Under the pieces are notes generated by a model that was not told the DNA's origin, did no database searches, and was given only the letters and a program-made list of their open reading frames with translations. DNA of 34,889 nt from a virus, in IMG/VR virus record IMGVR_UViG_3300019776_000257, positions 1 to 34,889 of that record; one strand, given 5' to 3'. This document shows, one piece after another, positions 15,496 through 34,889 of the stretch (positions within the stretch are counted from its first letter, which is position 1; each line of letters starts with the position of its first letter). The position numbers and the translations under genes are program-made.

Positions 15496-15545
15496 TATAT
15501 ACTCCATAATAACGTATAAGTATATAGACGATTTGGAGATATACT

Positions 15546-15746
15546 ATGAAGGACTTTTTTAAGAACAGATTCAAGATTGCTGACGAAAGAATGGCCATAT
15601 GCAAGCAATGTGACAAGTTCAATCAGACCAATTCTAGATGTAATGAGTGTGGTTGTTTCATGGACTATAAGACATTGCTGCCATACGTATCATGTCCTCT
15701 GGATAAGTGGAAAGCTATTGAGTCCGAAGAAGACATAAATAAGTAA
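15546..15746 (+). CDS. Small zinc-ribbon protein (DUF6171-like)
   Basis: A 66-residue protein with Cys19, Cys22, Cys32, Cys35, Cys37 and Cys50 (ICKQC, RCNECGC, YVSC), suitable for binding one or two zinc ions. Short proteins with this arrangement are common in T4-type phages of marine and soil bacteria, usually near structural genes. I recall the label DUF6171 but cannot confirm it. GGAG precedes the ATG. It begins a long plus-strand run of structural-type genes, with an ATAAATA box overlapping its 3' end that probably serves the next gene. Confidence 0.7.
   Translation: MKDFFKNRFKIADERMAICKQCDKFNQTNSRCNECGCFMDYKTLLPYVSCPLDKWKAIESEEDINK
15735..15741 (+). promoter_or_regulatory. Late-promoter-like ATAAATA
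   Basis: Lies inside the end of the zinc-ribbon gene, 27 bases before the ATG at 15768. Confidence 0.45.
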
Positions 15747-15767
15747 AACGACAAATAGGACTACAAT

Positions 15768-19409: not shown

Positions 19410-19554
19410 TAACAATGCTCAATGGAATCGTGAAGTAGCAAACAAGATATGGCAAAAACTCAAAGGTAAGTCTATACCAGAGAGCTATACCGACAAAGAA
19501 TGCGAAGAGATTCTGAAAAGATACTGGCACAAAGCCATGGAGTCGGAACAGTAG
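19402..19554 (+). CDS. Small conserved-type protein, TTG start
   Basis: A 50-residue acidic protein (starting with TDNNAQWNREVANKIW) read from TTG 19402, overlapping the end of the HAD gene; AAGGAA lies about 10 bases upstream. The frame is helical and ends at a TAG just before a late-type promoter. I recognise no family. The TTG start makes it less certain, but the frame fills the gap and keeps phage-like codon use. Confidence 0.5.
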   Translation: MTDNNAQWNREVANKIWQKLKGKSIPESYTDKECEEILKRYWHKAMESEQ

Positions 19555-19558
19555 AATA

Positions 19559-19565
19559 CTAAATA
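19559..19565 (+). promoter_or_regulatory. Late-promoter-like CTAAATA before the 1135-residue gene
   Basis: CTAAATA lies 34 bases before ATG 19599; GAGGGA follows as ribosome site. Confidence 0.55.
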
Positions 19566-19598
19566 CCTCTATAAGTTAACATTCCTATAGAGGGAATA

Positions 19599-22500
19599 AT
19601 GGTAAAAAAGACGCCTGGAGTGGCGTTTTATGGTAAAGTTCGTATACCGACTATTGGTCATGCCGAAGCCATAAACACAGCCAAGAGTATAGCAAAAAAG
19701 CGTGGTGCAAGACTTACAATCGGTCTTTCTCATACAAACGCACCTTTAAATTCTTCCCAAAAAAGAGTTCATGCTGAAAAAGTGTTTAATCATCCTGTAA
19801 TGACGGGTGATGAACACACTAAAAATCTGTTTTCATTTCTATCCCATCTCAACAAAAGTCACGACGAACTTCATCTGGTTGCTGGCTCAGATAGAGCCGA
19901 GCAGTATCGTTCTACCTTACAACAGTATAATGGTAGAGCCGATAAGAGCGGCAAAGTACCTTTTCATTTTAAGAGTTGGAAAGTACATGAAGTTGAGGGT
20001 GAAAGAGGAGATAGTGGTAAAGATCCAACAAAAATGTCCAGAGACGAACTGGTCAGATCGGTTAGCGCATCTAAGCTAGAGAAATTGGCCTCAGAAGGCA
20101 ACTATGAACACTTTAAAGCATATCATCCTGGTATGCCAGAGTCTCATGTTAAAAAAGTATATGGTCAGATTCGCAAAGGTCTTTCATTAAACGAAGAAGT
20201 TACACGCAAAGAACTAGCACCTATGCTAGATTCGTTTGTATCATTTGCATCTGATAAGCTTGGATTGAAGTCAATGCCAACTGTCAGATATAAGACAGAT
20301 GATGATGATTACAATTCATTTGCCGCATACAATCCCTCATCTAACGAACTTTCAGTCTCTACAATCAACAGACATCCAATGGACATTTTCCGTTCTGTGG
20401 CACATGAACTTGTGCATCACAAGCAGAACGAAGATGGTCGTATTGGTAAAGATATAGCGAAAGAGGGTGAGACTGGCTCAGACATAGAGAACGAAGCAAA
20501 CGCAGAAGCAGGTAAGATTATGCGCTGGTTTGCAAAATCAAATCCTGATATGTTTGCAAAAAGCTTTGTTGTCGAGACAAACACAGCAGCAATGGCGCCC
20601 GTTAGTGGTATTCGTGGTCTAGGCAATGTAACTGGCGAAGTATCGCCTACAGGAACATCTCAGTATGTCATTGCAAATCAGACATACACTCAGAATGCAC
20701 AGGGCGGTAATAACACAGATGGACTTTGGTATGATGACGGCATAGACAGTTATTGGCTGGATAAAAAAGGTTCTGGTGAATATCAAAAGAAAGCTGTCAA
20801 AGGTTTCAAGGCTGTTCGTGGACAACTGAACGAAGGCATCAACGATCCTGGCAGACTCAAAGCGGTCTTCTTGGCTGGTGGTCCAGGTTCTGGTAAAGAC
20901 TTTGTTATGAACAAAGCACTTGCTGGTAATGGCCTAAGAGAGATTAATTCTGATACAGCATTTGAATATCTGATGAAGAAGAACGGTCTTGACTTAGAAA
21001 TGCCAGATGAAGAAAGAGTTGAGCGTGAGGTTGTTCGCGGTCGTGCCAAGAACATTACTTCAACGAAAGAAATCAACTCACTTTCTGGTCGTTTAGGTCT
21101 GATAGTAAATGGTACAGCAGACGATTTAGAAAAAATCAAGACTGTGAAATCAGAACTAGAAGACCTTGGCTACGATACAATGATGGTGTTTGTTAACACA
21201 TCAAATGAAGTATCGCGTCAGCGTAATGTTGAAAGAGGCAAGTCTGGCAATCGTAAAGTTCCAGATGGTACCGACAAGCAAGGTAATCCAGATGGATCGC
21301 CAAACATTCGTCAAGAGAAGTGGGATCTTGCACAGAAGAATATCGGTGAGCTTGAAAAGATTTTCGGTAAAGATAGCTTCACTGTTATCGACAATACAGC
21401 AGATATTCGTAAAGTTGCGCCAGATGTAAAAGACCGAATCGAAGCAGATTTCAATCGTGTTCGTCGCATGACTATGCAGTTTGTGCAATCTCCTGTGAAG
21501 AACAAGAGAGGTCAAGCATGGACTCAAAGACGCGCAAGATATCAGGGTACCACACAGTATACACCACCAACTGCATACACAAAAGTACCCACACCTACTC
21601 GTATTGAAACACCCAAGGCTATCATAAAACCATCAAGCGAAGTAATGGATCAAGCCAGAAGACTTGGCTTATCTTATTACGGTTTCGGTCGTTTTGGTCG
21701 TAAAGTTGGTGGCAAGAATAAAGTAATGTATCATAGCAAGGGCAATCAGCTTGTTAAAGTACAAATCAACGAAGACCTGAGACAGTGGTTTAGCAAAGAT
21801 CATCCAAAGGGTAATTGGAAAAGAGTAGATACAAAAGGCAATATAAAAGGCGATTGTGCAAGAGAGCCTGGCGAGGGTAAACCAAAGTGTATGCCAGCAT
21901 CCAGAGCATATTCAATGTCGAAAGAAGATAGAGCAAAGTCAGCTAGAAGAAAAAGAAGAGAGGATCCCGTGGCAAATAGACCAGGAAAAGGCAATAAGCC
22001 TATTAATGTAAAAACAGAATCGGTACAAAAAGCAATAGACAAGATTAAGGCCGATAGAATATCAGAACAAGTTTTGATAGAAAAGAATGTTCCGACAAAT
22101 CCAGAGTTATGGAGCAAGGCCAAGTCGTTAGCAAAAAGCAAGTTTGATGTTTATCCTTCTGCATACGCTAATGGTTGGGCATCAAAGTGGTATAAGTCAA
22201 AAGGTGGTGGTTGGAAAACTGCTACAAACGAAGCATGTTGGGATGGCTATGAGCAGAAAGGTATGAAGAAGAAGGGCGGTCGCAGTGTTCCTAATTGTGT
22301 ACCAGCAAACGAAGCCTTTGAACAATTCATGCAGTCTATGGGCAATAAGCCATCAACAGAAAAGAAAAAGCCAAAGAAGAAGGCTCTAAATCAAGAGGCT
22401 CTCACTGCACCAGAACCATGGGGCTATAACTTCGGTGGTGATGGCATTGGTCCAACATACGCTGTTCCGCGCGCGGGTACGCCATTTGGATTTGGATATG

Positions 22501-23006
22501 GTTCTGCATACTCTGCTGGCATATCTGAAAGTATTCAGACATGGATGAACTCAGAAAAAACACAGCAAAAGTTTGCTAATAAGTATGGCGACTTATGGGA
22601 AGAAAAGCTAACCGAAGCAGCACTTAGACTTGAAGAAGCTGGATGTGGTTGTGACCACAGCGAAAAGAAGTCTATAAAGAAGTTGAGAGAGGGTATGGAA
22701 GGCGGTGTTAACAACATGAGCATGATTCCAACTCAACGCAAAAGCGAAGAACAGTTAAACGAAAAAGGTGCAGACTCAAAAGGTTTGTATCGCTCAACAG
22801 AAAGTGGTGCTGGTTTAACAAGAAAAGGCGCAAAGCACTTTGGCGTGAAAACAGCAGTTACCACACCACCGTCAAAACTAAAAAGGGGTGGTAAAGCATG
22901 GAAACGCCGTAAGTCATTCTGTGCAAGAATGGGCGGTGTTGTTCGCAGATCAAAAAATGCAGAACGCGCAAGAGCTTCTATGCGCCGTTGGAACTGCGAA
23001 GAATAG
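19599..23006 (+). CDS. Multidomain protein: nucleotidyltransferase, metallopeptidase, P-loop kinase and basic modules
   Basis: This 1135-residue protein appears to be a chain of separate domains. Residues 1-190 form a nucleotidyltransferase-like fold with the HIGH-type TIGH (18-21). Residues 205-400 form a metallopeptidase-like region with HELVH (269-273) and downstream acids (ENEANAEAG). Residues 418-625 form a zeta-toxin-like P-loop kinase with GGPGSGKD (427-434). From 725 on come Lys/Arg-rich modules, one with GNWKRVD and another with KSKFDVYPSAYANGWASKWY, and a basic tail (WKRRKSFCARMGG). Sites of the T4 prohead protease type, (L/I)-x-E, fall at the borders: LNE at 197-199, 410-412 and 1053-1055, INE at 723-725, ISE at 821-823, LTE at 1004-1006. 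It is probably a virion polyprotein. The ATG has GAGGGA upstream. Confidence 0.75.
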   Translation: MVKKTPGVAFYGKVRIPTIGHAEAINTAKSIAKKRGARLTIGLSHTNAPLNSSQKRVHAEKVFNHPVMTGDEHTKNLFSFLSHLNKSHDELHLVAGSDRAEQYRSTLQQYNGRADKSGKVPFHFKSWKVHEVEGERGDSGKDPTKMSRDELVRSVSASKLEKLASEGNYEHFKAYHPGMPESHVKKVYGQIRKGLSLNEEVTRKELAPMLDSFVSFASDKLGLKSMPTVRYKTDDDDYNSFAAYNPSSNELSVSTINRHPMDIFRSVAHELVHHKQNEDGRIGKDIAKEGETGSDIENEANAEAGKIMRWFAKSNPDMFAKSFVVETNTAAMAPVSGIRGLGNVTGEVSPTGTSQYVIANQTYTQNAQGGNNTDGLWYDDGIDSYWLDKKGSGEYQKKAVKGFKAVRGQLNEGINDPGRLKAVFLAGGPGSGKDFVMNKALAGNGLREINSDTAFEYLMKKNGLDLEMPDEERVEREVVRGRAKNITSTKEINSLSGRLGLIVNGTADDLEKIKTVKSELEDLGYDTMMVFVNTSNEVSRQRNVERGKSGNRKVPDGTDKQGNPDGSPNIRQEKWDLAQKNIGELEKIFGKDSFTVIDNTADIRKVAPDVKDRIEADFNRVRRMTMQFVQSPVKNKRGQAWTQRRARYQGTTQYTPPTAYTKVPTPTRIETPKAIIKPSSEVMDQARRLGLSYYGFGRFGRKVGGKNKVMYHSKGNQLVKVQINEDLRQWFSKDHPKGNWKRVDTKGNIKGDCAREPGEGKPKCMPASRAYSMSKEDRAKSARRKRREDPVANRPGKGNKPINVKTESVQKAIDKIKADRISEQVLIEKNVPTNPELWSKAKSLAKSKFDVYPSAYANGWASKWYKSKGGGWKTATNEACWDGYEQKGMKKKGGRSVPNCVPANEAFEQFMQSMGNKPSTEKKKPKKKALNQEALTAPEPWGYNFGGDGIGPTYAVPRAGTPFGFGYGSAYSAGISESIQTWMNSEKTQQKFANKYGDLWEEKLTEAALRLEEAGCGCDHSEKKSIKKLREGMEGGVNNMSMIPTQRKSEEQLNEKGADSKGLYRSTESGAGLTRKGAKHFGVKTAVTTPPSKLKRGGKAWKRRKSFCARMGGVVRRSKNAERARASMRRWNCEE

Positions 23007-23013
23007 TAATTCA

Positions 23014-23020
23014 ATAAATA
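23014..23020 (+). promoter_or_regulatory. Late-promoter-like ATAAATA
   Basis: Lies 30 bases before ATG 23050, after the stop of the 1135-residue gene; a GAGGA ribosome site follows. Confidence 0.55.
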
Positions 23021-23049
23021 TAAGTAAATATCCATAGAGGAAAACTACA

Positions 23050-25050
23050 ATGCTTAACAAAAACGATCCATTAATTGGCGCAGTTCAAGAAGTGATGAAG
23101 AGAAATCATGCTGAACGTGAAGCCGTAAAACTAGTGAACGAAAAGTTTGGTGTGACAGACCGCAAGGCTCTTCCACACGAACGTCAGGGCGAGTGGGATG
23201 CTGCATATAAGTCTGTATTAACAGAAGGTCTTCATCCAAATCAGCAGAAGCTTGATGTGCATGAGCCTGATAAAGATGAACTAACATCTGATGATTTCAG
23301 AAAGCTTCGTGCTAAGAAGAAGCCAATGGAAGAAGATGTAACATCTCCTTCTTCAATGGGTATTCCAAAGCCTAACTATGCATCTGGAACACCAGCTTAT
23401 GCTAACAAGGGACCACAGATGGTCAATCGCACTGGAAAAGGCAATGCCGAAACTGGTATGGGTAGATCAGAAAATATTGCACATCAAGGCAATTCAGTTG
23501 TGACCAAAACAAGTAAAAAGTCTTCTTCGGTAATGCCAAGCACAATGAAAGAAGCTAAGGTTAATCCTTATGCTGTAGGCATGGCCGCAGTTGAGAAGTC
23601 CACTGGTGATGAACCACCAATGGAAAAGAAGAACATCATGAAGGCACATAAGATTGCAAAGAAGATTATTGCTAGAAAGAAGATGAACGAGGGTTTTAAT
23701 GACCGCCACGATTTGAGCGAAAATGCTTCTGCTAAAAAGCAGGTCGTGGCGGATCAGCTTAATGAAGATGACATTGATTCTTATGAAAATAGAATGACTG
23801 CCGGCCTTGGAATCGGTGGTTATAGTCCATATGGTGGTGGTCGTTTTGGAGGCGGTTCAGCTAAAACAAGTGGTTCTGGTGCAATGACAGGAAGAGTAAA
23901 AGCTTCTAATATTAATACTAGAACAGGCGAACCTTTGCCAGCAAAACGTTCAGTTCCAAAAGTAAATATTAAAGATGCGCCAGGACTTTCCGCGGCAGCT
24001 AAATCTCGCTTTAAAAAGAGACTCGATGCAATACAAAGTGCGGCTCCAAAAAGTCCAAAAAATTCATTAAAATCATCGAAAAAACCTTCGACAACTCCAG
24101 CACAACCTGTTCCTGGAGATAAAAATTATGAATCTCCTATTCGAAGTTTCGTTAGAAAGCAGAATGAAAAAAATGCTAAAATTAAAGCAAATGCTAGACC
24201 AGCTAAAGACATTAAAGCAGATGATGCTCGTTCTGAATTTTTGTCAAGAGCAAAGGGTGTGACACAGGCGTCTAGACCGGCATCTGATGTTAAAGCTGGT
24301 GATGCTCGTTCTGAATTTTTGTCAAGAGCAAAGGGTGCGACACCACCAAGACCGGCATCTGATGTTAAAGCTGGTGATGCTCGTTCTGAATTTTTGTCAA
24401 GAGCAAAATCTAGTGCTGCTAAACCGCCAGCATCTTCAGCTTTAGCAAAAACTCAACAAGCAAAAAGAATCTCTGCAATACGTAGAACAAGTGTTGGTGC
24501 TGGATTAGCCCTCGGTACTGTCGCATCTGGTGGTGATCCGCTTGGGTTAGATAATACAGTAACTTCCAGTGCATCAACTCCTAAGAAGAAGGAAATTACT
24601 GATAGAGTTCCTCCATCTGATGCTAAGGAACAAGGCGCAAAGGTCGGTACTTCTGGTTTACAAAAGCCATCAGGAACAACAGCGCAGCCATATGGCATGA
24701 ATATACCTAAGAAGCTTGATCCAGATTCTCGTATTGCTAAAGGTACTGCTCCTCAAGCACAAGCACCTGCTTTGCAGAAGAAGGCTGCTCCTCAAGCACA
24801 AGCACCTGCTTTGCAGAAGAAGGCTACCAAACCAGCAGCACAAGCACCTGCTGTTCAAAAGAAAGCTGCTCCTCAAGCAAATCAACCCTCTGCATCAGAG
24901 CGCAGAGAAAACAGAAGATTGCTTGATAGAGGAATGGTTGTTGGACCAGAAGCCAAGAGGGCACAGCAAAGGTCTGGTACTGGTGTAACAACAGGAACAA
25001 CAGTAGTGCAAAAACCAATGAAAATTAACAAAAATTTACCAGGTAAATAA
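23050..25050 (+). CDS. Basic, repetitive virion-type protein
   Basis: A 666-residue protein of low complexity, rich in Lys, Ala, Ser, Pro and Gln. The first 60 residues may be folded (ending VLTEG); the rest looks disordered. Three tandem 20-residue repeats containing DARSEFLSRAK are encoded at 24196-24408, and about four 13-residue repeats of the form APQAQAPALQKKA near 24740-24880. Sites of protease type occur at LTE 57-59, LSE 222-224 and LNE 237-239. A basic, cleavable, repeat-rich protein next to the other packaged candidates suggests a head-interior or DNA-associated role. I recognise no enzyme domain. GAGGA precedes the ATG. Confidence 0.7.
   Translation: MLNKNDPLIGAVQEVMKRNHAEREAVKLVNEKFGVTDRKALPHERQGEWDAAYKSVLTEGLHPNQQKLDVHEPDKDELTSDDFRKLRAKKKPMEEDVTSPSSMGIPKPNYASGTPAYANKGPQMVNRTGKGNAETGMGRSENIAHQGNSVVTKTSKKSSSVMPSTMKEAKVNPYAVGMAAVEKSTGDEPPMEKKNIMKAHKIAKKIIARKKMNEGFNDRHDLSENASAKKQVVADQLNEDDIDSYENRMTAGLGIGGYSPYGGGRFGGGSAKTSGSGAMTGRVKASNINTRTGEPLPAKRSVPKVNIKDAPGLSAAAKSRFKKRLDAIQSAAPKSPKNSLKSSKKPSTTPAQPVPGDKNYESPIRSFVRKQNEKNAKIKANARPAKDIKADDARSEFLSRAKGVTQASRPASDVKAGDARSEFLSRAKGATPPRPASDVKAGDARSEFLSRAKSSAAKPPASSALAKTQQAKRISAIRRTSVGAGLALGTVASGGDPLGLDNTVTSSASTPKKKEITDRVPPSDAKEQGAKVGTSGLQKPSGTTAQPYGMNIPKKLDPDSRIAKGTAPQAQAPALQKKAAPQAQAPALQKKATKPAAQAPAVQKKAAPQANQPSASERRENRRLLDRGMVVGPEAKRAQQRSGTGVTTGTTVVQKPMKINKNLPGK
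24196..24408 (+). repeat. Three 60-bp tandem coding repeats with short spacers
   Basis: Units at 24196-24255, 24274-24333 and 24349-24408 share GATGCTCGTTCTGAATTTTT and flanks. Units 2 and 3 are nearly identical, unit 1 has diverged. They encode a 20-residue repeat in the 666-residue protein. Confidence 0.9.
24740..24880 (+). repeat. 39-bp coding repeats
   Basis: About four copies of a unit starting GCTCCTCAAGCACAAGCACC, the first two identical, the third and fourth changed. They encode an Ala/Gln/Lys-rich repeat. Confidence 0.85.
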
Positions 25051-25051
25051 A

Positions 25052-25450
25052 ATGAACAACAAAAAGCTAGCGGAGATGATAAAACGTCTCCGCGAAGAAA
25101 AGTTAAAACAGATTGGTTCAGGCGGTTCTTATAGAGGTAGCGGAGCAGACATACAAGATCCTGCTAGTCCAAATCGAGAACCAGGTTCAGCAACAAAAGA
25201 AATTCATCATGGCATAGTAAAAGAAGAAGAACTGAATGAGTTTCAATCAAGAGCAAGACCAACACACAGTTATATTGGATTAAAAATCCAATCTAGAAGA
25301 CAACCATTCCGTAATGCTGTAAGTCGTCCTTTAGGATCAAATCAAAAGGGTAGATATAGACTTGAAGAGAAAGAGAAGTCTTCCAATACTAAATCAACAT
25401 TCATAAATACTACACCAGAAAACGATTCGGCTATGGTAGGAACACAATAA
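25052..25450 (+). CDS. Small basic protein, probable virion component
   Basis: A 132-residue protein with a helical N-terminus (NKKLAEMIKRLREEKLKQ), then a Gly/Ser-rich polar stretch and a basic C-terminal half. A protease-type site ELNEF (LNE at 61-63) divides the two parts. It begins two bases after the stop of the 666-residue gene and probably shares its mRNA. No family recognised. Confidence 0.65.
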   Translation: MNNKKLAEMIKRLREEKLKQIGSGGSYRGSGADIQDPASPNREPGSATKEIHHGIVKEEELNEFQSRARPTHSYIGLKIQSRRQPFRNAVSRPLGSNQKGRYRLEEKEKSSNTKSTFINTTPENDSAMVGTQ

Positions 25451-25461
25451 GGAGAAAGTAA

Positions 25462-26052
25462 ATGTCACTTTGGACTAATCTAGATGGCGTAACAGGCAAC
25501 GGTAAGCCTTTATATGCCAACACAACATATAGAGTTTCAAACTCTACAATAAACGGAAGCAAAGCAAACACTGCCAAGTATTATGGCGCTGTTTATGGCC
25601 TTTCTGCAACAGAAGCAGCTAACACACTCGTAGATGGTGGTAAAACAGCACATGCTGGTTGGGTATCACAGAAGATTGGCACAGGCCCAATCAAGACAAT
25701 CACAATCGTCAATGGCGGACAGGGTTACAACTCTGCTGGCTTCTTGACAATCTCGGGTGGTGGCGACGGCACAGTTAATGTTGCTTACACAATTGCAAAC
25801 TCACAAAACAGTTTGCAGTCATATTCAAGTAATGCTAGACTAAATGCAATTGCTACACTTACAATCGTAAGTCCTGGCGCAGGGTTTAACGTTGCTCCTA
25901 CTGTAATTGCTGGCGGTGCTAACATTGCACCAGCAGTATTCTCAGTTACCATGGGCGGCCGCGCAGGTCGTGTACAGTATGAGACTCTAGTTGCTATGGG
26001 TTCTATTACTGGTGATGATCCAGGCGACGATAAGTATTTCCCAGGAACTTAA
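25462..26052 (+). CDS. Glycine-rich structural protein, likely head decoration or similar
   Basis: A 196-residue protein that lacks charge clusters and is rich in Gly, Ala, Thr and Asn. Paired segments such as TITIVNGGQGYNSAGFLTIS and TIVSPGAGFNVAPTVI form an internal duplication with a GxGY/F turn, typical of beta-rich phage surface proteins. A very strong ribosome site (AAGGAGAAAG) and even codon use suggest high expression. Similar proteins are abundant virion components in marine T4-type phages (recalled, not checked). No signal peptide. Confidence 0.7.
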   Translation: MSLWTNLDGVTGNGKPLYANTTYRVSNSTINGSKANTAKYYGAVYGLSATEAANTLVDGGKTAHAGWVSQKIGTGPIKTITIVNGGQGYNSAGFLTISGGGDGTVNVAYTIANSQNSLQSYSSNARLNAIATLTIVSPGAGFNVAPTVIAGGANIAPAVFSVTMGGRAGRVQYETLVAMGSITGDDPGDDKYFPGT

Positions 26053-26074
26053 TAGAGAAAAATGGCGGTAACAA

Positions 26075-27235
26075 ATGAAGAGATTTACAGAATATCTAAA
26101 CGAAGATTTTGATCCAGCAGTTTTCAATGCTGATGGTGGTATTTCTATTGACGATCCAACAGTAATTGATGCTATCAATTCTAACCTTGAGATGGCAACA
26201 AGTTGCAGTTATAGAACACCATACAACGGCCTTGAAGAAGTTACAAAGACGCTGGCATACTACAAAATCTTTCTCCCAAAGGGCGTCTTTCTAGATCAAA
26301 ATCACGGTAACGATGTTTTTGAAGTCTCTCAGTTTGGCGAAAAGACAGGAATGAATAATCAAGGAGAAGTCGTAACCGCCAACGACTTTCCACTATTCAT
26401 CTATTATGAATGGTCACTAAACGAAAAAGGCATGTATGATACTTTTGCATGTCTATGTAATCAGGATGAGTTAGACGAAATTCTAGCTGATTTTGAAGCA
26501 GAAGTAGGAGATGATGAAACTGATTTGCAAGAACAGCACTCTATGGGCAAAATCTCAAAGATGCTTTATAAGGCTGTAAATCAGGTCAAGGCTCAAAAGC
26601 AAAGTGATGATGTAGACTCATATATCGAACATGAGAAAGAAGGTAAAACTTTTACTCAGATTTGTGAAGAGCCAATGCCAAATTTAAACAAAAGAATGGC
26701 AGCAAAGCTTGGTTCAAAAGCAGTAACTTTGGCCAAGAGAATGACCAAGGAAGAAACCATCAACGAAATCTCAAAGAAGTTGGCACATAAGGCTTCTGAG
26801 AAGGCCTATGAAGCTGGTCTTAAACACTATGATGAGACTAGCAGAAAAAGACGCAAGGCTTTAAAGTCAAAAGACAAGAAAGACATGGATGCAGCCACAG
26901 CCGAACAAGGCAAGATGAGCAAGAAGTGGAAGCAGTCTATGAGATTCAAGGCTTATGCCGATAAGAAGATGGAAGAAGACTATGATTTCAGATCCAAGCA
27001 AGATGCTGAAGATAGTGCGGCTATTGCTAAGAGAGCAAGAAAGCCTAGTGAAAAAGCTTTCTGGAAAAAAGCATATAAAAAGAACAACAAAAAGGCTGTA
27101 ACTGGCATGGATGAAGAGAAAGAGCCATTCGATCCGCCTTTCAAGAACGTTCAAAGAACCGAAAAGAAAGATGCTGCAAGAGCTTCACAATTAGCTAAAA
27201 AGGCAGAAAAGAAAGCTAAAGCAAAAAAGAAATAA
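26075..27235 (+). CDS. Probable internal head protein with capsid-targeting N-terminus
   Basis: A 386-residue protein starting MKRFTEYLNE, with Leu8-x-Glu10 as in T4 internal proteins. Residues 11-140 look globular and acidic (AYYKIFLPKGVFL, LFIYYEWSLNEK). From about residue 200 the chain is strongly basic, with many Lys, ending KKAEKKAKAKKK, as expected of a DNA-binding packaged protein. Further protease-type sites are LNE 115-117 and INE 229-231; the second separates the acidic and basic halves. No enzyme domain recognised. The stop overlaps the next start (TAATG). Confidence 0.68.
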   Translation: MKRFTEYLNEDFDPAVFNADGGISIDDPTVIDAINSNLEMATSCSYRTPYNGLEEVTKTLAYYKIFLPKGVFLDQNHGNDVFEVSQFGEKTGMNNQGEVVTANDFPLFIYYEWSLNEKGMYDTFACLCNQDELDEILADFEAEVGDDETDLQEQHSMGKISKMLYKAVNQVKAQKQSDDVDSYIEHEKEGKTFTQICEEPMPNLNKRMAAKLGSKAVTLAKRMTKEETINEISKKLAHKASEKAYEAGLKHYDETSRKRRKALKSKDKKDMDAATAEQGKMSKKWKQSMRFKAYADKKMEEDYDFRSKQDAEDSAAIAKRARKPSEKAFWKKAYKKNNKKAVTGMDEEKEPFDPPFKNVQRTEKKDAARASQLAKKAEKKAKAKKK

Positions 27236-27621
27236 TGATTGATAATTTAAATGATGAGAACTTCATGATATATGCCATGAAGTGTTATGACTCTCCAAAC
27301 TGCATAATGAGTGAATTTGAGGAAGACTTAAAGCGTATTAAGTACGTAAAGAGACTTATCAAAAGGTATAAAACGACTGGTGAACTAAAAGAGAGGCTGA
27401 TACTTAATCACATTATCATCCTCTCTAATGTTTTTGGAACTCGTAATGCAGTGAGAATGTTGTTCTTTAAACTAGACGAACAAGACTACCAGATACTTAA
27501 AACGTTTCTGATTTTTCTTGGATACATGCCAGATAGTGTAACAGGAATAAACGGTAAGAACATTAACTCACACAGTATCTCAATTGACTTGTTTGTAGGT
27601 AAACGTCTTAGAGATATTTAA
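27235..27621 (+). CDS. Conserved T4-type phage protein (DUF7207-like)
   Basis: This 128-residue all-helical protein matches, from memory, a family conserved in T4-type phages of marine bacteria: NDENFMIYAMKCYDSP, then LKRIKYVKRLIKRYKTTGEL, then LILNHIIILSNVFG and the ending LKTFLIFLGYMP. The function is unknown, though its steady place near late structural genes suggests a link to head or tail assembly. It is coupled to the preceding gene by TAATG. After its stop is a nested hairpin (27623-27657). Confidence 0.75.
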   Translation: MIDNLNDENFMIYAMKCYDSPNCIMSEFEEDLKRIKYVKRLIKRYKTTGELKERLILNHIIILSNVFGTRNAVRMLFFKLDEQDYQILKTFLIFLGYMPDSVTGINGKNINSHSISIDLFVGKRLRDI

Positions 27622-27622
27622 A

Positions 27623-27657
27623 GGTATTCATATCATCACTGGCATAGCCAGAATACC
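27623..27657 (+). other. Nested hairpin followed by a direct repeat
   Basis: GGTATTC pairs with GAATACC, enclosing TGGC-ATA-GCCA. There is no T-run, so it is not a standard terminator. At once after it TTGTCAAGA occurs twice (27661-27669, 27672-27680). Confidence 0.5.
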
Positions 27658-27685
27658 ATGTTGTCAAGAGGTTGTCAAGACTAAA

Positions 27686-28168
27686 ATGAATAGAGTAAGA
27701 AAATACATTAAAGAGAGTTTAGCTGGTGCAGGTGCTTCTATGGATGGCATGTCTGCTCCTTTTTCTGCTATGGGCCAAGAGATTGATTCTAGAAGAAAGC
27801 AAAAACCTATACCACTAGGCAAGACAATGGGATCATATGTTGATGAAGAAAACACAGCAGGTTCAGGAGCAGTTGCCGCACTTGGTGTTGGACCACAAGG
27901 TGAACCAGGTCGTTCGGCAGAGTTGATGCCGATGGTTCGTCGTGGAAAAAAGTTTATGGGTGTTGAACCATATATTGTTCCATCAAGAGTGTTCAACCAA
28001 ATCAGAGAAGCAAAGAGAAAAGGCAAGCACTGGCGCAAGTTTTTAGACGAAGATGATACATTCCATCACATTCGCATGGAAGCTAAGAAGAACAAAAAAG
28101 GTGCTATTATAATAGAAGATGAAAACACTGGCGCATTGATATTTGCCAGATACGGAAAGGAAGTATAA
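27686..28168 (+). CDS. Small protein with capsid-targeting-like N-terminus
   Basis: A 160-residue protein that begins MNRVRKYIKE, with Ile8-x-Glu10 matching the internal-protein pattern. A Gly/Ala/Met-rich stretch follows, then a collagen-like GVGPQGEPG, and a basic C-terminal half (REAKRKGKHWRKFLDE; EAKKNKKGAII). No family recognised. It is predicted to be packaged. The next gene starts in its stop (TAATG). Confidence 0.6.
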   Translation: MNRVRKYIKESLAGAGASMDGMSAPFSAMGQEIDSRRKQKPIPLGKTMGSYVDEENTAGSGAVAALGVGPQGEPGRSAELMPMVRRGKKFMGVEPYIVPSRVFNQIREAKRKGKHWRKFLDEDDTFHHIRMEAKKNKKGAIIIEDENTGALIFARYGKEV

Positions 28169-28689
28169 TGTCAAATTGGCCATTACAACGCGATTGCGAT
28201 TCATTCTATGGTAATCCACGCGGTAAGAACGTAACACAACCATCAGCGAAGTGGGAAGCAGCATATCTTGTTCCGTTTAAACCACCATTTCGTATTACAT
28301 ATGCTGGCAAGCCAGTATCGCAGTTCAAGGTAAACAAGAATTGCCTCGAAGGTTTTCAGGAAGCATTTAACAATCTTCTCAAAGCAGCAGGCGGAAAACA
28401 AAAGACGCTAGATCATTGGGGCGTGTCTATATTTGCAGGTTGCTATAACTATCGCTTGATGCGCGGTGGCAACAGTCTATCAATGCACTCATGGGGTTGT
28501 GCTATTGACTTAGATCCAGCAAACAATTCACTCAGCGATAACACACCACGCTTCGCGCAGTTTCCAGAGGTTCTAGACGCATGGGCACAGACTGGTGCTA
28601 TATGGGGTGGTGACTGGAACGGCAATAAGAATACGCTAGACGAACGCCGCTGTGACGGTATGCATTGGCAGTTTGCGAGATTGAGATGA
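28168..28689 (+). CDS. Endolysin, M15 family D,D/L,D-carboxypeptidase
   Basis: A 173-residue protein with the zinc site of M15 peptidases: SMHSWGCAIDLDP (His107 and Asp114) and DGMHWQF (His166), with a nearby acid. The family cuts peptide bonds in peptidoglycan, and phage members of this size act as endolysins. No signal peptide is visible, so a holin is needed to release it, and the two genes following encode membrane proteins of that type. AAAGGAAG precedes the ATG. Confidence 0.9.
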   Translation: MSNWPLQRDCDSFYGNPRGKNVTQPSAKWEAAYLVPFKPPFRITYAGKPVSQFKVNKNCLEGFQEAFNNLLKAAGGKQKTLDHWGVSIFAGCYNYRLMRGGNSLSMHSWGCAIDLDPANNSLSDNTPRFAQFPEVLDAWAQTGAIWGGDWNGNKNTLDERRCDGMHWQFARLR

Positions 28690-28973
28690 GAGAAGAAAGC
28701 TGGTTAAAACAATATTGGAGACCCGCTATTGCTTGGCAGTATTTTGCTGTCTGTGTGTTTGACTTTATTATTTTTCCAGCAGCGTATATGTATTTTTCAA
28801 GAGAACCATGGGATCCTATCACGCTGAAAGAAGGTGGCTTTTATCATTTGGCTATGGCAGCAATCATTGGTGTAGCCGCGTGGACGCGCGGACAAGAAAA
28901 GATTACAAAGTTATTAGAAGGCGGTGAAGAAATACAAAAGACTACAACAAGTCAAACGCCTAAAGGAAAATGA
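28686..28973 (+). CDS. Holin-like membrane protein
   Basis: A 95-residue protein with two hydrophobic segments, roughly 15-38 and 52-65, after the motif RPAIAWQYFAVCVFDF, typical of a phage holin group with the RP..AW pattern. The C-terminus is polar and basic. It starts within the stop of the endolysin gene (ATGA). ATG 28686 is preferred over the upstream frame start because of this coupling. Expected role: timed permeabilisation of the inner membrane for lysis. Confidence 0.8.
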   Translation: MREESWLKQYWRPAIAWQYFAVCVFDFIIFPAAYMYFSREPWDPITLKEGGFYHLAMAAIIGVAAWTRGQEKITKLLEGGEEIQKTTTSQTPKGK

Positions 28974-28981
28974 GGTAAACT

Positions 28982-29542
28982 ATGTTAGCATTATTATCAC
29001 CCTTTTTTGGCATTATAGGTAGTTTACTACCATCAATCGTGAGAATATTTGAGCGCAAGCAGGAGATACAATATGAAATACAACTTACACAAATCAAGTT
29101 GGCCGCTGCCGAAAAGCAGGCCGATCTCCAATTTGATATTGAGATGGTTAAAGCTGACGCTAACCTACGACAATCTGCTCTTGATCATGATAAGTCTATT
29201 GATGGTGGAAAGTTTATTAACGCACTACGCGCTTCTATACGTCCTGTTATAACATATTCATTCTTCTTCCTATTTGTTGCAGTCAAGTTGGCTGCTGCTT
29301 ATGTGATGCTATCAACTGGACAGTCTGTACCTGAAATGCTTAATGCGGTATGGGATGTAGAAACGATGTCGCTGTTCTCTACTATCATTGCATTCTGGTT
29401 TGGTAGTCGTGTAATGGAAAAGCAAGAAAAGCAAGCTGCTGTCGTGGCCGCAACACAGCCGCAACTTAACGTAACTGTGTCTAATAAAGTCTCTGAGAAA
29501 AAAGTAACAAAGCCGCCAGTAGGAATGGGCAGAGATAAATAA
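28982..29542 (+). CDS. Holin-like protein of the 3TM type
   Basis: A 186-residue protein with an N-terminal hydrophobic segment (1-22), a long charged helix (25-75), then two membrane segments around ITYSFFFLFVAVKLAAAYVM and MSLFSTIIAFWFGSRVM. The RP.I and WFGSR motifs recall the 3TM holins described for gene transfer agents and related phages of alphaproteobacteria. Following a holin-like gene, it may be a second holin or an accessory lysis regulator. GAGGT precedes the ATG. Confidence 0.75.
   Translation: MLALLSPFFGIIGSLLPSIVRIFERKQEIQYEIQLTQIKLAAAEKQADLQFDIEMVKADANLRQSALDHDKSIDGGKFINALRASIRPVITYSFFFLFVAVKLAAAYVMLSTGQSVPEMLNAVWDVETMSLFSTIIAFWFGSRVMEKQEKQAAVVAATQPQLNVTVSNKVSEKKVTKPPVGMGRDK
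29535..29541 (+). promoter_or_regulatory. Late-promoter-like ATAAATA
   Basis: Overlaps the end of the 3TM holin gene, 25 bases before the GTG at 29566. Confidence 0.4.
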
Positions 29543-29565
29543 AACAGTAATAGGAGTGAATTGAA

Positions 29566-30039
29566 GTGTCTGACCAAGAAATTAAAGTTGATATTGAGCT
29601 TTTGAAAAAAGATGTAGTCACAATGTCGGCTTTGTTAGAAAAGTTTGACACAACTATCGACAAGATGCAAGAGATTGCTTCAAATCTTTCTAGAATGATA
29701 TCTTTGCAAGAACAAAGACTTGAAAATCAAGAAAAAGTAACAGCAGAGGTACAGAGCGTTCTGGAAATGAGAAGAATAGAACACAATAACAACATCAAAG
29801 AAGTATACAACCGTATCAATACGGTAAACAAAGAACTAACAGACAAGATTGAAGATACTGAAAGAGCAATCTTGTCTGAACTTCACAAGCTTAGAGAAGA
29901 CATTCAAAATGAAGATCGCGGAATATCTTCCAGAATCGGTCAGATTGAAACCTGGAAATATGGAGTTGCGGCAATCATAGGTTTCTTGGTATTCCTGATA
30001 GCCAACAACGCAATCAACATCAGCAAACTCTTCGATTGA
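29566..30039 (+). CDS. Coiled-coil membrane-anchored protein
   Basis: A 157-residue protein from a GTG start with TAGGAG upstream. Residues 1-120 are heptad-rich helix; residues 130-150 form one membrane segment (YGVAAIIGFLVFLIANNA) near the C-terminus. This topology would place the coiled coil on the cytoplasmic side. The position behind the lysis genes suggests a role in lysis timing or the envelope, but no family is recognised. It ends just as the primase promoter begins. Confidence 0.75.
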   Translation: MSDQEIKVDIELLKKDVVTMSALLEKFDTTIDKMQEIASNLSRMISLQEQRLENQEKVTAEVQSVLEMRRIEHNNNIKEVYNRINTVNKELTDKIEDTERAILSELHKLREDIQNEDRGISSRIGQIETWKYGVAAIIGFLVFLIANNAINISKLFD

Positions 30040-30063
30040 CTTTCTAACACAATCTGTTATAAT
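30036..30063 (+). promoter_or_regulatory. Sigma70-type promoter of the primase operon
   Basis: TTGACT (30036-30041), 16 bases, TATAAT (30058-30063). It begins within the end of the preceding gene. The start site falls near 30070. Confidence 0.85.
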
Positions 30064-30090
30064 GCCATCTAAGTAACACTAGGTGGCATT
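30061..30090 (+). promoter_or_regulatory. Hairpin covering the primase ribosome site
   Basis: AATGCCATC (30061-30069) pairs with GGTGGCATT (30082-30090), 9 bp with one G-U, loop of 12. It holds the Shine-Dalgarno AGGTGG and abuts the ATG. The local promoter starts the mRNA at about the loop, so only read-through transcripts carry the 5' arm. Confidence 0.7.
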
Positions 30091-31116
30091 ATGTCTTTAT
30101 ACATTGACAAGAAGTTCGTTTCCTTAGTATCTCCCAAACTGGAACGTTTCAAACAAAAGTCTGAGTACCTGTGGAATTTTAGGTGCCCAATCTGTGGAGA
30201 TTCCCATAAGAACAAGTTGAAGACGCGCGGCTATTTCTATCGCCGCAAGTCTGACCTATTCTTTCAGTGCCATAACTGCGGTACTTCGCTGTCTATTGGA
30301 AACTTTCTCAAGACGATTGACCGTTCACTGTATCGTGAGTATCAGCTTGAACGATACAAGGACGAGAGTGCAGGCAATACTGCGAAGCCTGATTTCTCAT
30401 GGGCAAAGACAAAACCCGTCTTTGCATCGAAAACTGACACACAAGAGTCGAAAATCAATCTACCTACAATCGACTTGTTGAAGGAAGATCATGCCGCAAA
30501 GCAGTATCTATTGAAGCGCAAGATTCCGCGCGAACACTTGAAGCATATCTATTATGCCGAGAACTTCAAGGCTTTCGTGCTTGAAATGCTTCCTGATTAT
30601 GAGAAGACTTTATATGATGAACAGCGCATTGTGTTTCCATTCTACGGCCAGGACAAGAAGCTGCTCGGCTTTCAAGGTCGCGCTTTAACTGATTCCAAAG
30701 TCAAGTACATCACAATCAAAATGGATGATGACTTTACTAAAATCTATGGACTAGATAGAGTTGACTTCGCAAAGCGTATCTATGTGGTAGAGGGCCCGAT
30801 TGATAGCCTATTCTTGCAGAATTCACTTGCAACTATGGACGCTTCGCTGTATAATATTACTCTTTTACTTGGCAACTATGACTATGTGTTCATTCACGAC
30901 AATGAACCACGCAATGCTGCAATCACAAAGCAGATGGCGAAGACAATTAGTCACGGTAAAAATATTTTTATTTGGCCACAAAATATAGTAGCAAAAGACA
31001 TAAACGACTGGATCCTGACAGGAACGACTCCTTCTGAGGCTCAGAGTATTATAGATAGACATACGTTCAATGATTTGAGAGCAAAGTTGGAGTTTGAAAG
31101 ATGGCGAAAGGCGTGA
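30091..31116 (+). CDS. DNA primase, T4 gp61 type
   Basis: A 341-residue protein with an N-terminal zinc site Cys32-x2-Cys35 ... Cys60-x2-Cys63 (FRCPICGDSH and FQCHNCG) and a TOPRIM domain: IYVVEGPIDS with Glu234, then FIHDNEP with Asp270. This matches T4 gp61, which makes short RNA primers together with the replicative helicase. The length agrees with the family (T4 342). It is the first gene of a nucleotide-metabolism operon under a strong early-type promoter; the ribosome site can be hidden by a hairpin. Its end overlaps the next gene by 16 bases. Confidence 0.95.
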   Translation: MSLYIDKKFVSLVSPKLERFKQKSEYLWNFRCPICGDSHKNKLKTRGYFYRRKSDLFFQCHNCGTSLSIGNFLKTIDRSLYREYQLERYKDESAGNTAKPDFSWAKTKPVFASKTDTQESKINLPTIDLLKEDHAAKQYLLKRKIPREHLKHIYYAENFKAFVLEMLPDYEKTLYDEQRIVFPFYGQDKKLLGFQGRALTDSKVKYITIKMDDDFTKIYGLDRVDFAKRIYVVEGPIDSLFLQNSLATMDASLYNITLLLGNYDYVFIHDNEPRNAAITKQMAKTISHGKNIFIWPQNIVAKDINDWILTGTTPSEAQSIIDRHTFNDLRAKLEFERWRKA

Positions 31117-31364
31117 GACATTTTCGTAAGAGACCTGTGACTATAGAAGCAATGCAGATTACCGATGCTACTTCAGTTTTAGACATAGAAGAGTGGATCA
31201 ACAGCCCAACTGTTGGTTTCAATACTAATCCACCTACAATCTGGATAGATACACTAGAAGGTCGTATGGAAGGTCGCGCGGGTGACTGGATCATCAAGGG
31301 TGTGAACGGTGAGTTCTATCCTTGCAAGAATGAAATCTTTATCAAGACATATCAGGAAGTATAA
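31101..31364 (+). CDS. PGDYG-family small protein
   Basis: An 87-residue protein showing the pattern of a widespread phage family: RKRPVTIEAMQ at the start, TLEGRMEGRAGDWIIKGVNGEFYPCKNEIFIKTY at the end, with GDWII in the position of the PGDYG motif. The function is unknown. It starts inside the primase gene with TTGGAG upstream and is followed 2 bases later by ThyX, so it belongs to the same operon. Confidence 0.88.
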   Translation: MAKGVRHFRKRPVTIEAMQITDATSVLDIEEWINSPTVGFNTNPPTIWIDTLEGRMEGRAGDWIIKGVNGEFYPCKNEIFIKTYQEV

Positions 31365-31365
31365 T

Positions 31366-32061
31366 ATGAACAATGTGACTTTGATCGGTGTTACGCAGCC
31401 GACTATTTTCTTGGCTAATATGGATAATCTGCCTGAGAAGGCAAAAGACATTCCAAACATGACCGCAGAACAGTTGATTGCTTACTGTGCCCGCGTGTCT
31501 AATCCTGCTAATCAGGACAACCCAGATAGCGAAAGACTTCTCAAGTATCTTGTGAAGAACAAGCACTGGTCGCCTTTTGAAATGGTGCATATCATCATGG
31601 AAATCCAGACTACGCGCGATATCGGTCGTCAGATACTTCGTCATCGCTCGTTCTCATTCCAAGAGTTCTCACAGCGTTATGCAGCAGTTGCAGAAATGAG
31701 TGAACCACGCGAAACGCGATTGCAAGATCAGAAGAACCGTCAGAACAGCATTGAGACGGATAATGAGAAACTTACTGAAGTTTGGGAAGCATATCAGAGA
31801 AATGTTATTCGTTATGCTAAAACTACATATGACTGGGCAATCAAGAACGGCGTAGCCAAAGAACAGGCCCGCGTTATTCTTCCCGAAGGTCTTACTATGA
31901 GCCGAATGTATATGTCAGGATCCCTTCGTTCCTGGATCCATTATTGCGAACTACGCATGGGTAATGGCACCCAGAAAGAACACCGTGAAATCGCTATTCA
32001 GTGTTGGAACATCATCACTGAGCAATTCCCCTCTCTCAAGAATGTATTGAACAATGACTGA
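31366..32061 (+). CDS. thyX: Flavin-dependent thymidylate synthase ThyX
   Basis: A 231-residue protein with the ThyX motif RHRSFSFQEFSQR at 92-104 (RHRxxSxxxxSxR). It uses FAD and NADPH to methylate dUMP to dTMP with methylene-tetrahydrofolate. Length and the second half (EQARVILPEGLTM, SLRSWIHYCELRM) fit the family. I chose ATG 31366 because AGGAAG lies upstream and the PGDYG gene ends at 31364; an earlier in-frame ATG at 31309 lies inside that gene. It supplies dTTP alongside the reductase downstream. Confidence 0.97.
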   Translation: MNNVTLIGVTQPTIFLANMDNLPEKAKDIPNMTAEQLIAYCARVSNPANQDNPDSERLLKYLVKNKHWSPFEMVHIIMEIQTTRDIGRQILRHRSFSFQEFSQRYAAVAEMSEPRETRLQDQKNRQNSIETDNEKLTEVWEAYQRNVIRYAKTTYDWAIKNGVAKEQARVILPEGLTMSRMYMSGSLRSWIHYCELRMGNGTQKEHREIAIQCWNIITEQFPSLKNVLNND

Positions 32062-32215
32062 TAAAGATAAAGAATTGATGGTAAAACTTGCCAGTGCGAA
32101 TCCAAACGCGATTGCATCGGATCTTTGTTCGGTACAACCGATATCATCTAATACAATATCAGAACTAATCAAAGAAACGAAGAAGAATCGTATCTTCGGA
32201 CAAAACAACCAATAA
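32054..32215 (+). CDS. Small protein of unknown function
   Basis: A 53-residue helical protein (starting MTDKDKELMVKLASANP) that overlaps the end of thyX by 8 bases. It has no membrane segment. The repeated helix-turn pattern could be a small DNA-binding or regulatory fold, but nothing decisive is seen. The overlap and position between thyX and the reductase gene indicate co-transcription. Confidence 0.6.
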   Translation: MTDKDKELMVKLASANPNAIASDLCSVQPISSNTISELIKETKKNRIFGQNNQ

Positions 32216-32237
32216 AAAAATTCAGGAGTACTATCGT

Positions 32238-34178
32238 ATGTCAGGCAGTAATATGTTACCGTCTCTCTATCAAGAATTCATTCACAAGAGCCGCTATGCT
32301 CGTTGGCTTTGGGATGAGAACCGTAGAGAAAATTGGGATGAAACTGTGTCCCGTTATTTCAACTTCTTTGATGAACATATCAAGGACGTTACTGGTTACA
32401 GTGTAAGCGCAGAAGAACGCAAAGAACTGGAACAGGCCGTTCTCAATCTTGAAATCATGCCATCTATGCGTTGCTTGATGACTGCTGGTGAAGCTCTCAA
32501 ACGTGAGAATGTTGCTGGGTATAACTGCTCTTATGTTGCTGTAGATAACCCTCGCTCGTTTGATGAGATTCTTTACATTCTCATGAACGGCACTGGTGTT
32601 GGTTTCTCTGTTGAGTCAAAGTATGTCGATCAACTGCCTATCGTACCTGACGCTTTCTTTGACACAGAAACAAATATTGTAGTCGCAGACTCAAAGCTGG
32701 GTTGGGCAAAATCTCTCAAGGAACTCATTCATCTTCTCTACGCCGGTCAAGTTCCGCGTTGGGATCTTTCTAAGGTTCGTCCTGCTGGCGCGCCTCTTAA
32801 GACATTTGGTGGTCGTGCATCTGGCCCAGCACCACTAGAAGAATTGTTCAAGTTTACTGTTGCAACATTCAAGAAGGCTGCTGGTCGTCGCCTGACAACT
32901 CTGGAGGCACATGACATTGTTTGTAAGATTGCTGAGATTGTCGTTGTCGGCGGTGTTCGACGCTCTGCGCTTATTTCTCTTTCTGATCTTAGCGATGATA
33001 GAATGCGCGTTGCCAAGTCTGGCGACTGGTGGAAAGAGAATGTTCAACGCGCTCTTGCTAACAACTCATTCGTTGCAAAGGAAAAGCCTGATGTTGGTAT
33101 CTTCATGCGTGAGTGGCTTTCGCTCTATGAGTCGCGCTCTGGTGAACGCGGTATCTTCTCCCGTCAAGCGTCTAAGAAGCAAGCAGAGAAGTTCGGCCGC
33201 CGTGATTCAAATCACGATTTCGGCACCAACCCATGTTCGGAGATTATTCTACGTTCCAGAGAGTTCTGTAATCTCACAGAGGTTGTTGTTCGCGGACATG
33301 ATACTCCCGAAAGCCTCAAACGAAAGGTCCGTCTCGCGACCATACTTGGTACATTTCAATCAACGCTCATCAACTTCAAGTACCTGAGTAAGAAGTGGCA
33401 AGAGAACTGTGCTGAAGAGCGTTTGCTTGGCGTGTCTTTGACTGGTATCATGGACAATGAGTATACGAATGGTACAGTTAAGGATTCGTATCTTGATAAG
33501 TATTCGTTGAGTGGTTTATTGGAGGATCTCCGTGAAGAAGCTGTTGAAACTAACGGTATTTGGGCTGCCAAGCTTGGCATTCCTGTCTCTGCTGCTATCA
33601 CCTGTGTTAAGCCTTCTGGTACTGTTTCTCAACTTGTGGACTCCGCCTCTGGTATTCATGCCCGTCACAGTCCTTATTATATTCGTACTGTTCGTGCTGA
33701 TAAGAAAGACCCTCTCGCTATTATGATGAAAGACATGGGTTTCCCTGTCGAGGATGATATCACAAAGCCTCAGCATACCTATGTCTTCTCATTCCCGCAG
33801 AAGTCTCCAGATCACGCCGTGTATCGCAAGGACTTGACTGCCATCGAACAACTTGAAATGTGGTTGGTCTATCAGCGTCATTGGGCGGAACATAAGCCAA
33901 GCGTAACGATTTCGGTCAGAGAAGAAGAATGGCCTGCTGTTGGTGCTTGGGTGTATGACCACTTCGATGAACTCAGCGGAATCTCATTTCTTCCACATAG
34001 CGACCATGTTTATAAGCAGGCACCTTATCAAGATTGTTCTAAAGAAGAATACGAGGAACTACTGGCCAAGATGCCCAAGCACATCGATTGGAACGAACTG
34101 TCCAAGTATGAAAAAAGAGATACAACAACCGGAAGTCAAGAACTAGCCTGCTCAGCCGCTGGAGGCTGTGAGATATAA
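32238..34178 (+). CDS. nrdJ: Adenosylcobalamin-dependent class II ribonucleotide reductase
   Basis: A 646-residue, single-chain class II enzyme. Key cysteines can be placed: Cys97 (GYNCSYV) and Cys344 (FCNLTEV) as the redox pair, Cys333 (NPCSEI) as the thiyl-radical cysteine, and Cys638 with Cys644 in the C-terminal tail (ACSAAGGC) as the reductant shuttle. The 11-residue gap between Cys333 and Cys344 equals that between Cys408 and Cys419 in the Lactobacillus enzyme. It reduces ribonucleotides using B12 and needs no oxygen or second subunit. CAGGAG lies ahead of the ATG. With ThyX it supplies dNTPs. The host must supply cobalamin. Confidence 0.95.
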   Translation: MSGSNMLPSLYQEFIHKSRYARWLWDENRRENWDETVSRYFNFFDEHIKDVTGYSVSAEERKELEQAVLNLEIMPSMRCLMTAGEALKRENVAGYNCSYVAVDNPRSFDEILYILMNGTGVGFSVESKYVDQLPIVPDAFFDTETNIVVADSKLGWAKSLKELIHLLYAGQVPRWDLSKVRPAGAPLKTFGGRASGPAPLEELFKFTVATFKKAAGRRLTTLEAHDIVCKIAEIVVVGGVRRSALISLSDLSDDRMRVAKSGDWWKENVQRALANNSFVAKEKPDVGIFMREWLSLYESRSGERGIFSRQASKKQAEKFGRRDSNHDFGTNPCSEIILRSREFCNLTEVVVRGHDTPESLKRKVRLATILGTFQSTLINFKYLSKKWQENCAEERLLGVSLTGIMDNEYTNGTVKDSYLDKYSLSGLLEDLREEAVETNGIWAAKLGIPVSAAITCVKPSGTVSQLVDSASGIHARHSPYYIRTVRADKKDPLAIMMKDMGFPVEDDITKPQHTYVFSFPQKSPDHAVYRKDLTAIEQLEMWLVYQRHWAEHKPSVTISVREEEWPAVGAWVYDHFDELSGISFLPHSDHVYKQAPYQDCSKEEYEELLAKMPKHIDWNELSKYEKRDTTTGSQELACSAAGGCEI

Positions 34179-34708
34179 CACTCGGTATGACCTGAGAACT
34201 TTATCTTAGGTCTATATACATTGGACTTGTATGTCTGTTTATATTCTTGTTCTTTGAGATACGCAGCATACAAGTCCATCGGATCTTCTTGAATGATTTC
34301 GAAATAATAAGGCAGTCGACCTCTATATCTAAGGTGTGCTCCTGTTGTTGTAATGCCAAACTTGAAGAATGATTCCGTTGCGTTATAGATACGAACAACA
34401 TAGAATGATGCTGGAATAGACTTTAGTTCAGGTTTTTCAGTGAATAGTTTTTCGGAATAATATCCTTCTCTATTCGTTTCTTTGGTGTTCTGTAATGCTA
34501 AATCAATCTGTTGCTTCTTGGTCTTTTGAGCGCCAAAAGTAACACACCATTTATCGACGGTGCCTTTAGATACGCCGTAGTATGATGCTATTTCTTTGCG
34601 GGATTTGTTTTGGACTTCATAGAGATCGATAAACTCTTGCTGATCCGGAAGAGGAATCTTCCCATCAGGTTGTCCGAGACGAAGTGGTTGATAAGTATAT
34701 ATAGTCAT
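34136..34708 (-). CDS. HTH plus GIY-YIG-like protein, possible homing endonuclease
   Basis: A 190-residue minus-strand protein. Residues 34-56 are a helix-turn-helix (RKEIASYYGVSKGTVDKW). The C-terminal half has SFYVVRIYNATESFFKFGIT, then an Arg-rich and later Glu-containing segment, and the ending HTECYI. This follows the layout of the GIY-YIG-like MUG113/T5orf172 domains, with the second motif as KFGIT. Such proteins are often selfish endonucleases of phages. ATG 34708 has AAGGAG upstream; the longer form has 19 more residues. Its 3' end overlaps the reductase gene by 43 bases. A CTAAATA box lies on the minus strand upstream. Confidence 0.75.
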   Translation of the reverse strand: MTIYTYQPLRLGQPDGKIPLPDQQEFIDLYEVQNKSRKEIASYYGVSKGTVDKWCVTFGAQKTKKQQIDLALQNTKETNREGYYSEKLFTEKPELKSIPASFYVVRIYNATESFFKFGITTTGAHLRYRGRLPYYFEIIQEDPMDLYAAYLKEQEYKQTYKSNVYRPKIKFSGHTECYISQPPAAEQASS

Positions 34709-34766
34709 AGGCTGATGCTCCTTGAAAGCGTTAGAGTGGTGGGGATTCCAGTCCCGCGACCACACC

Positions 34767-34773
34767 TATTTAG
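34767..34773 (-). promoter_or_regulatory. Late-promoter-like CTAAATA on the minus strand
   Basis: Read on the minus strand, CTAAATAG stands 59 bases before the ATG at 34708. It could drive the HTH/GIY-YIG-like gene late in infection. Confidence 0.4.
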
Positions 34774-34778
34774 TAAAC

Positions 34779-34889
34779 ATGGACTTTGATATGAAGATTT
34801 CTGAAAGAAAATATGAGATAGAGAAACGCCGCAGAGCCGAACGCGAAGTTTTGTTGAAAGAACATAATGAACGCTTTAAGGAAGAAATG
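34779..34889 (+). CDS. Partial gene, charged N-terminus, runs off the window
   Basis: An ATG at 34779 opens a frame to the end of the window (37 codons). The residues are highly charged (MKISERKYEIEKRRRAE and so on) and suggest a coiled coil. No ribosome site is obvious. No function can be assigned. Confidence 0.5.
   Translation, partial: MDFDMKISERKYEIEKRRRAEREVLLKEHNERFKEEM

Follow-up and report, generated by a model that had tools for sequence, protein, structure and literature searches.

The locus analyzed here raises the question of how a phage that carries its replication primase gene behind lysis genes could make primase from an early promoter without also making it from late mRNA that reads through from upstream. 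The DNA analyzed (referred to as the window) consists of positions 1 to 34,889 of IMG/VR record IMGVR_UViG_3300019776_000257, one strand, 5′ to 3′; its features near the primase gene are collected in Table 1, where the name gp61 is taken from annotations of matched primases. The element belongs to a family of uncultured T4-like phages. The upstream neighbors (endolysin- and holin-like proteins, with ATAAATA nearby) would fit a late operon, and endolysin- and holin-like genes also lie upstream in relatives L025 and L104 (4 of the 10 proteins queried matched such genes). At its other end (5-9479) the window holds 28 tRNA-like genes, a nearly full set (ARAGORN), and among them a manA RNA motif (RF01745, 8432-8628; 57.7 bits, gathering threshold 55.2); Rfam gives no family at the hairpin/promoter element.

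Table 1. Features at and upstream of the primase gene, in window coordinates.
Feature	Position	Strand	Description
Endolysin-like gene	28168-28689	+	protein match
Holin-like gene	28665-28973	+	protein match
ATAAATA, T4-type late-promoter-like motif	29535-29541	+	directly 5′ of last upstream gene
Last upstream gene	29566-30039	+	matches N-terminal part of phrog_451; stop 18 nt 5′ of hairpin
-35 box TTGACT	30036-30041	+	read in sequence
Extended -10, TGT TATAAT	30055-30063	+	TGT 30055-30057, TATAAT 30058-30063
5′ arm of hairpin	30058-30071	+	contains entire -10 box plus discriminator
Predicted transcription start	30071	+	predicted from position, 8 nt after -10 box, at loop edge
Loop	30072-30079	+	freely variable; length 7 to 16 nt among relatives
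3′ arm of hairpin	30080-30093	+	Shine-Dalgarno AGGTGG 30081-30086, start codon 30091-30093
Primase, T4 gp61-like	30091-31116	+	phrog_47, E 1e-82

The primase promoter is near-consensus sigma70 (TTGACT, a 16-nt spacer, TGT and TATAAT), and its score of 11 matches out of 12 is the highest for any promoter-like site when both strands are scanned over 15500-34889; the stop codon of the upstream gene (TGA, 30037-30039) sits within the -35 box. TATAAT is kept in all 20 distinct close-clade sequences, in which position 30070 is invariably T and position 30071 is A in 19 and G in one, the usual pyrimidine/purine pair, which fits a start at 30071. An mRNA initiated at this point would lack the 5′ arm, as the predicted start lies at the loop edge, and would have a leader of 20 nt; starts anywhere from 30069 to 30072 each remove nearly all or all of the arm. 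A promoter of the sigma70 class would be expected to be early, the timing being deduced from promoter type and neighbors.

The earlier note had placed the -10 box over the 5′ arm of a 9-bp hairpin (30061-30069 with 30082-30090) whose 3′ arm holds the ribosome site. Both arms are present as claimed, with one G-U pair, and the overlap with the -10 box can be read directly in the sequence; the stem is longer than first described, with 12 pairs (30060-30071/30080-30091), or 14 when U58-G93 and A59-U92 are counted, so that the whole -10 box, the Shine-Dalgarno (SD) sequence and the AUG all lie within it. The stem alone has a predicted energy of -17.1 kcal/mol. For 30040-30110 the predicted folding energy is -19.5 kcal/mol, compared with an average of -8.5 among 200 shuffled sequences, none of which does as well (z -4.5). 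Folding is weaker on the opposite strand (z -2.4) and ordinary for RNA from 30071 onward (z 0.17). The mean pair probability of the stem is 0.96-0.97 in contexts of 91 to 701 nt, upstream and coding sequence included. In read-through RNA the SD is predicted to be unpaired with a probability of 0.001, vs 0.33-0.55 in RNA from 30071 and 0.29-0.55 over starts at 30069-30072; by prediction, the SD would be no more than half open in the short RNA from 30071.

These features point to a cis-acting translational gate that would block late read-through translation of the early primase gene, a reading to which we assign a probability of roughly two in three. In the mechanism that we infer (start site, timing, late read-through and loss of translation included), a host-type RNA polymerase would initiate at ~30071, where the inverted repeat meets its loop, and the resulting mRNA, being without the 5′ arm, would leave the SD accessible so that primase is made. 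Polymerase that had initiated at late promoters farther upstream, such as the motif at 29535, would transcribe the -10 box and discriminator, which would then pair with the SD and AUG and exclude ribosomes. Primase output would come from its own sigma70-type (early) promoter and would be insulated from late read-through. The proposal that primase is translated only from the early transcript is retained as a deduction in softened form, "only" being too strong. The own-promoter half of the gate would follow from promoter geometry, and the masking half from predicted folding together with selection for pairing. In 53 of the 58 distinct leaders the upstream open frame (found in 57, none in 1) stops at least 10 nt 5′ of the -10 box, and a ribosome finishing there would therefore not need to open the stem.

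A protein search for close primase relatives yielded 40 loci (that of L015 is cut inside the promoter), and a recognizable version of the element lies 5′ of the primase start in 38 of them, L034 and L035 being without it. A pattern scan of IMG/VR returned 33 contigs and a looser pattern 34; of these 34, 33 are contigs in which a primase relative had been found, and the other, L090, breaks off after the first 13 nt of an ORF with a primase-like beginning. A search through the full length of 14 records found a single copy of the element in each of 12 and none in those of L037 (stem mismatch) and L035, and the promoter pattern has just one further site in the 14, with two mismatches; on these grounds, the idea of a repeated control site of an early regulon was rejected. 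The element pattern gave 0 matches in bacterial genomes, and cultured phages gave no DNA match to window positions 28500-31500. The best cultured primase is 45% identical, the cultured relatives include Kyanoviridae and other T4-like phages, and at four cultured loci, from 2406 records with a primase match, no such hairpin was seen by eye.

Stem conservation favors the view that RNA pairing is under selection. With the -10 box and AUG set aside, the stem shows 8 distinct variants in 20 sequences, all of them transitions, and 7 of the 8 stay paired via G-U, the sole break being an A-C mismatch in L037; the loop variants comprise 3 transitions and 10 transversions (Fisher p 0.001 vs stem). Sliding the partners lowers paired cells from 98.9% to 26-50%. 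Two-sided pair changes (covariation) do not occur in the close clade, a shuffle control on the close-clade stem shows no signal, as the 3′ arm is nearly invariant, and the transition pattern is partly set by the bases in the 5′ arm, so that taken alone it is moderate evidence.

The same variants bear on the reading in which the repeat is a DNA operator, with a phage or host repressor dimer bound across -10 and +1 to shut the primase promoter. A dyad over -10 and +1 is in the classical operator position, and the arms are conserved; however, asymmetric changes of the G-U kind (7 of the 8 distinct variants) are relevant to an RNA and not to a DNA dyad, the element is present in one copy per record, and in the sister clade described below the arm sequence is wholly replaced. 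The fixed half-site spacing expected of an operator is also lacking, as the loop ranges from 7 to 16 nt in close relatives and would rotate the half-sites relative to each other, which argues against a DNA-binding dimer. We consider an operator unlikely.

A role in ending or stabilizing late mRNA (as terminator or 3′-end protector), with the inner start letting primase mRNA escape, is likewise improbable. The hairpin has the longest stem in a terminator-type scan of the region and is its top terminator-like site by that measure, and T tracts follow the stem in two relatives. In L040 the usual hairpin is followed by T7, and the two outermost counted pairs are missing because the T run displaces the ATG; L117, a member of the window clade, carries a hairpin unlike the usual one that the targeted pairing test misses (p 0.73), with a 5′ arm that starts before the -10 box and with T6GT4 after it. 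In these two the T tract means that the block could be termination and not RBS masking. However, the window and most relatives lack a T run and have the AUG directly after the stem, and the scan counted just 4 G-C pairs; the G+C-rich stem and following U run of an intrinsic terminator are thus not found here, the U run occurring in L040 and L117 alone among distinct leaders. That the repeat is a replication origin or primase loading site overlapping the promoter by chance is very improbable, for although it lies beside primase once per record in 12 of 14, the close-clade 3′ arm always has the SD, and the AUG in all but L040, and sequence conservation does not extend past the close clade. All three readings are ranked below the translational gate.

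The relation of the hairpin to primase was assessed over 4436 distinct start regions in the loci. A strong promoter lies 20-46 nt 5′ of 108 of them, including 49 primase starts, recognized by N-terminus. Pairing reaches p ≤ 0.05 at 26 of the 49 primase starts vs 1 of the 59 other promoter-proximal starts (which are not all independent, since a few are nearby alternative starts of one gene), and -10 kcal/mol is reached by 24 of 49 vs 0 of 59. The notion that a hairpin accompanies every strong promoter of these phages was rejected on the single case among the 59.

For more distant relatives, an alignment search confirmed 284, of which 80 loci were kept (43 new), and the window plus loci supplied 84 leaders, 58 of them distinct. 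In the pairing test, in which the discriminator-to-start stretch alone is shuffled, significant 5′-arm/leader pairing is seen in each of the 20 window-type leaders (p ≤ 0.0075) and in 11 of the 38 others (p ≤ 0.05). The arms of distant paired leaders (e.g., L100, L131, L110, L119 and L111) are mostly unrelated, reading by eye GACAGATC/GATCTGTC in L100, ACAATCC/GGATTGT in L131, GAACTCTTT/AAGGAGTTC in L110 and ATCCTTT/AAAGGAT in L111. The 60-row primase tree places the window clade (20 rows, support 100/99) beside a 15-row sister clade (98/91) that is rich in hairpins, with a combined p of 2e-7 for 12 leaders, or 1e-5 for 10 leaders when the worst member of close pairs is used; another 10-row clade has two hairpins (nine leaders, combined p 0.003). 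Significant pairing at the tested position is missing from 27 of the 38 more distant leaders, the whole L122-L140 clade included (combined p 0.94, ten leaders), and the gate is therefore not essential to this primase. Conservation of the hairpin across all primase relatives was rejected on its absence from that clade.

The leaders of most of this hairpin-less clade have a form of their own. In L123, L124, L125, L132, L133, L135, L139 and L140 they read ATG NNN AGG TGA NNN ATG 5′ of primase, with the first ATG ~11-13 nt past the -10 box, possibly a near-leaderless mini-ORF whose Arg codon AGG is the primase Shine-Dalgarno. By eye, Pelagibacter phage Mosig (L094) and Methylophilales phage Melnitz-3 (L095) have a promoter-like site very near the primase start, going by which their primase mRNA would be almost leaderless.

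In the proposed gate, late read-through would come from upstream late promoters, and [CA]TAAATA could serve as such by analogy to T4 TATAAATA. Across 54 loci, the window among them and most near-duplicates omitted, the stretch 80-1200 nt 5′ of primase contains 47 copies of the motif on the + strand and 3 on the minus strand, vs 13-24 and 4-14, respectively, for eight scrambled motifs; 39 of the 54 loci have at least one [CA]TAAATA, and 15 have none within 1.2 kb. Over the whole window it is found 10 times on the + strand (1294, 4132, 8644, 13234, 13765, 15735, 19559, 23014, 25403 and 29535) vs once on the minus strand, a count of 10 that is no excess over shuffles (mean 8.4, with 69 of 200 at least as high). 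The resemblance to T4-type late promoters lies in this placement on the + strand, mostly close before + strand genes; the difference is that the motif at 29535 is ATAAATA after G and not TATAAATA, leaving it a candidate promoter. A 21-nt imperfect inverted repeat with a 2-nt gap (4122-4165) overlaps a CTAAATA motif elsewhere in the window.

Taken together, the element is real and conserved, and is probably a read-through-sensitive translational gate. A more specific version, to which we give slightly better than even odds, is a mirror-image time gate in which the 5′ arm of an early gene's hairpin is its own promoter and late RNA is untranslatable; pairing alone would be selected, with the arms rewritten across lineages and at least two relatives apparently having a start site in a terminator.

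Two known arrangements invite comparison. In IS10 and IS50, read-through RNA folds over the transposase RBS and own-promoter RNA does not, which insulates the gene of the own promoter from outside promoters. The likeness is that, as predicted here, RNA from the own promoter begins within the outer arm and masking affects the read-through RNA; the difference is that the IS arrangement sets a mobile element against host transcription, with a weak promoter and no phage time switch, whereas the gene here is a phage primase and not the transposase gene of an insertion sequence. The available text of PMC4265352 and PMC8450116 contains no description of IS10/IS50 fold-back protection, and among the open-access papers listed by literature searches none describes an early promoter placed within an RBS hairpin.

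In phage T4, according to the available text of one review (PMC3014915), the TIRs of genes e, soc, 49 and I-TevI are masked in upstream-initiated RNA, and in gene e, where the structure brings lysozyme synthesis down 100-fold, late promoters lie within the region encoding its 5′ strand; the genes under such control are all late genes carried on early or middle transcripts, as stated in the available part of another (PMC2988022). The likeness to these genes and to Aeh1 mobE is that upstream RNA masks the SD or AUG and an inner promoter gives RNA without the 5′ arm (PMC3014915, PMC2988022, available text), and the earlier note's description of the locus as the gene e trick in the opposite sense agrees with both reviews, as far as their available text goes. 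By prediction, the present locus has both the helix that masks SD and AUG in upstream RNA and the promoter whose RNA lacks the 5′ arm. However, in T4 the inner promoter is late (TATAAATA) and so is the gene, whereas here a sigma70-type promoter (TTGACT-16-TATAAT, its -10 preceded by TGT) stands before a replication primase gene that follows lysis genes. If the reading is true, T4-like phages use the gene e device both ways, shutting late genes early and an early gene late, and have a terminator-free way to turn off an early gene that follows a late operon; the arrangement would also offer a compact insulated promoter design, and a promoter inside a sequestering arm is a signature that could be searched for in other compact genomes. 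Given the reverse order relative to T4 gene e, the element would work like the T4 device without belonging to it by promoter class; the logic of the device is known, and its direction and target look new.
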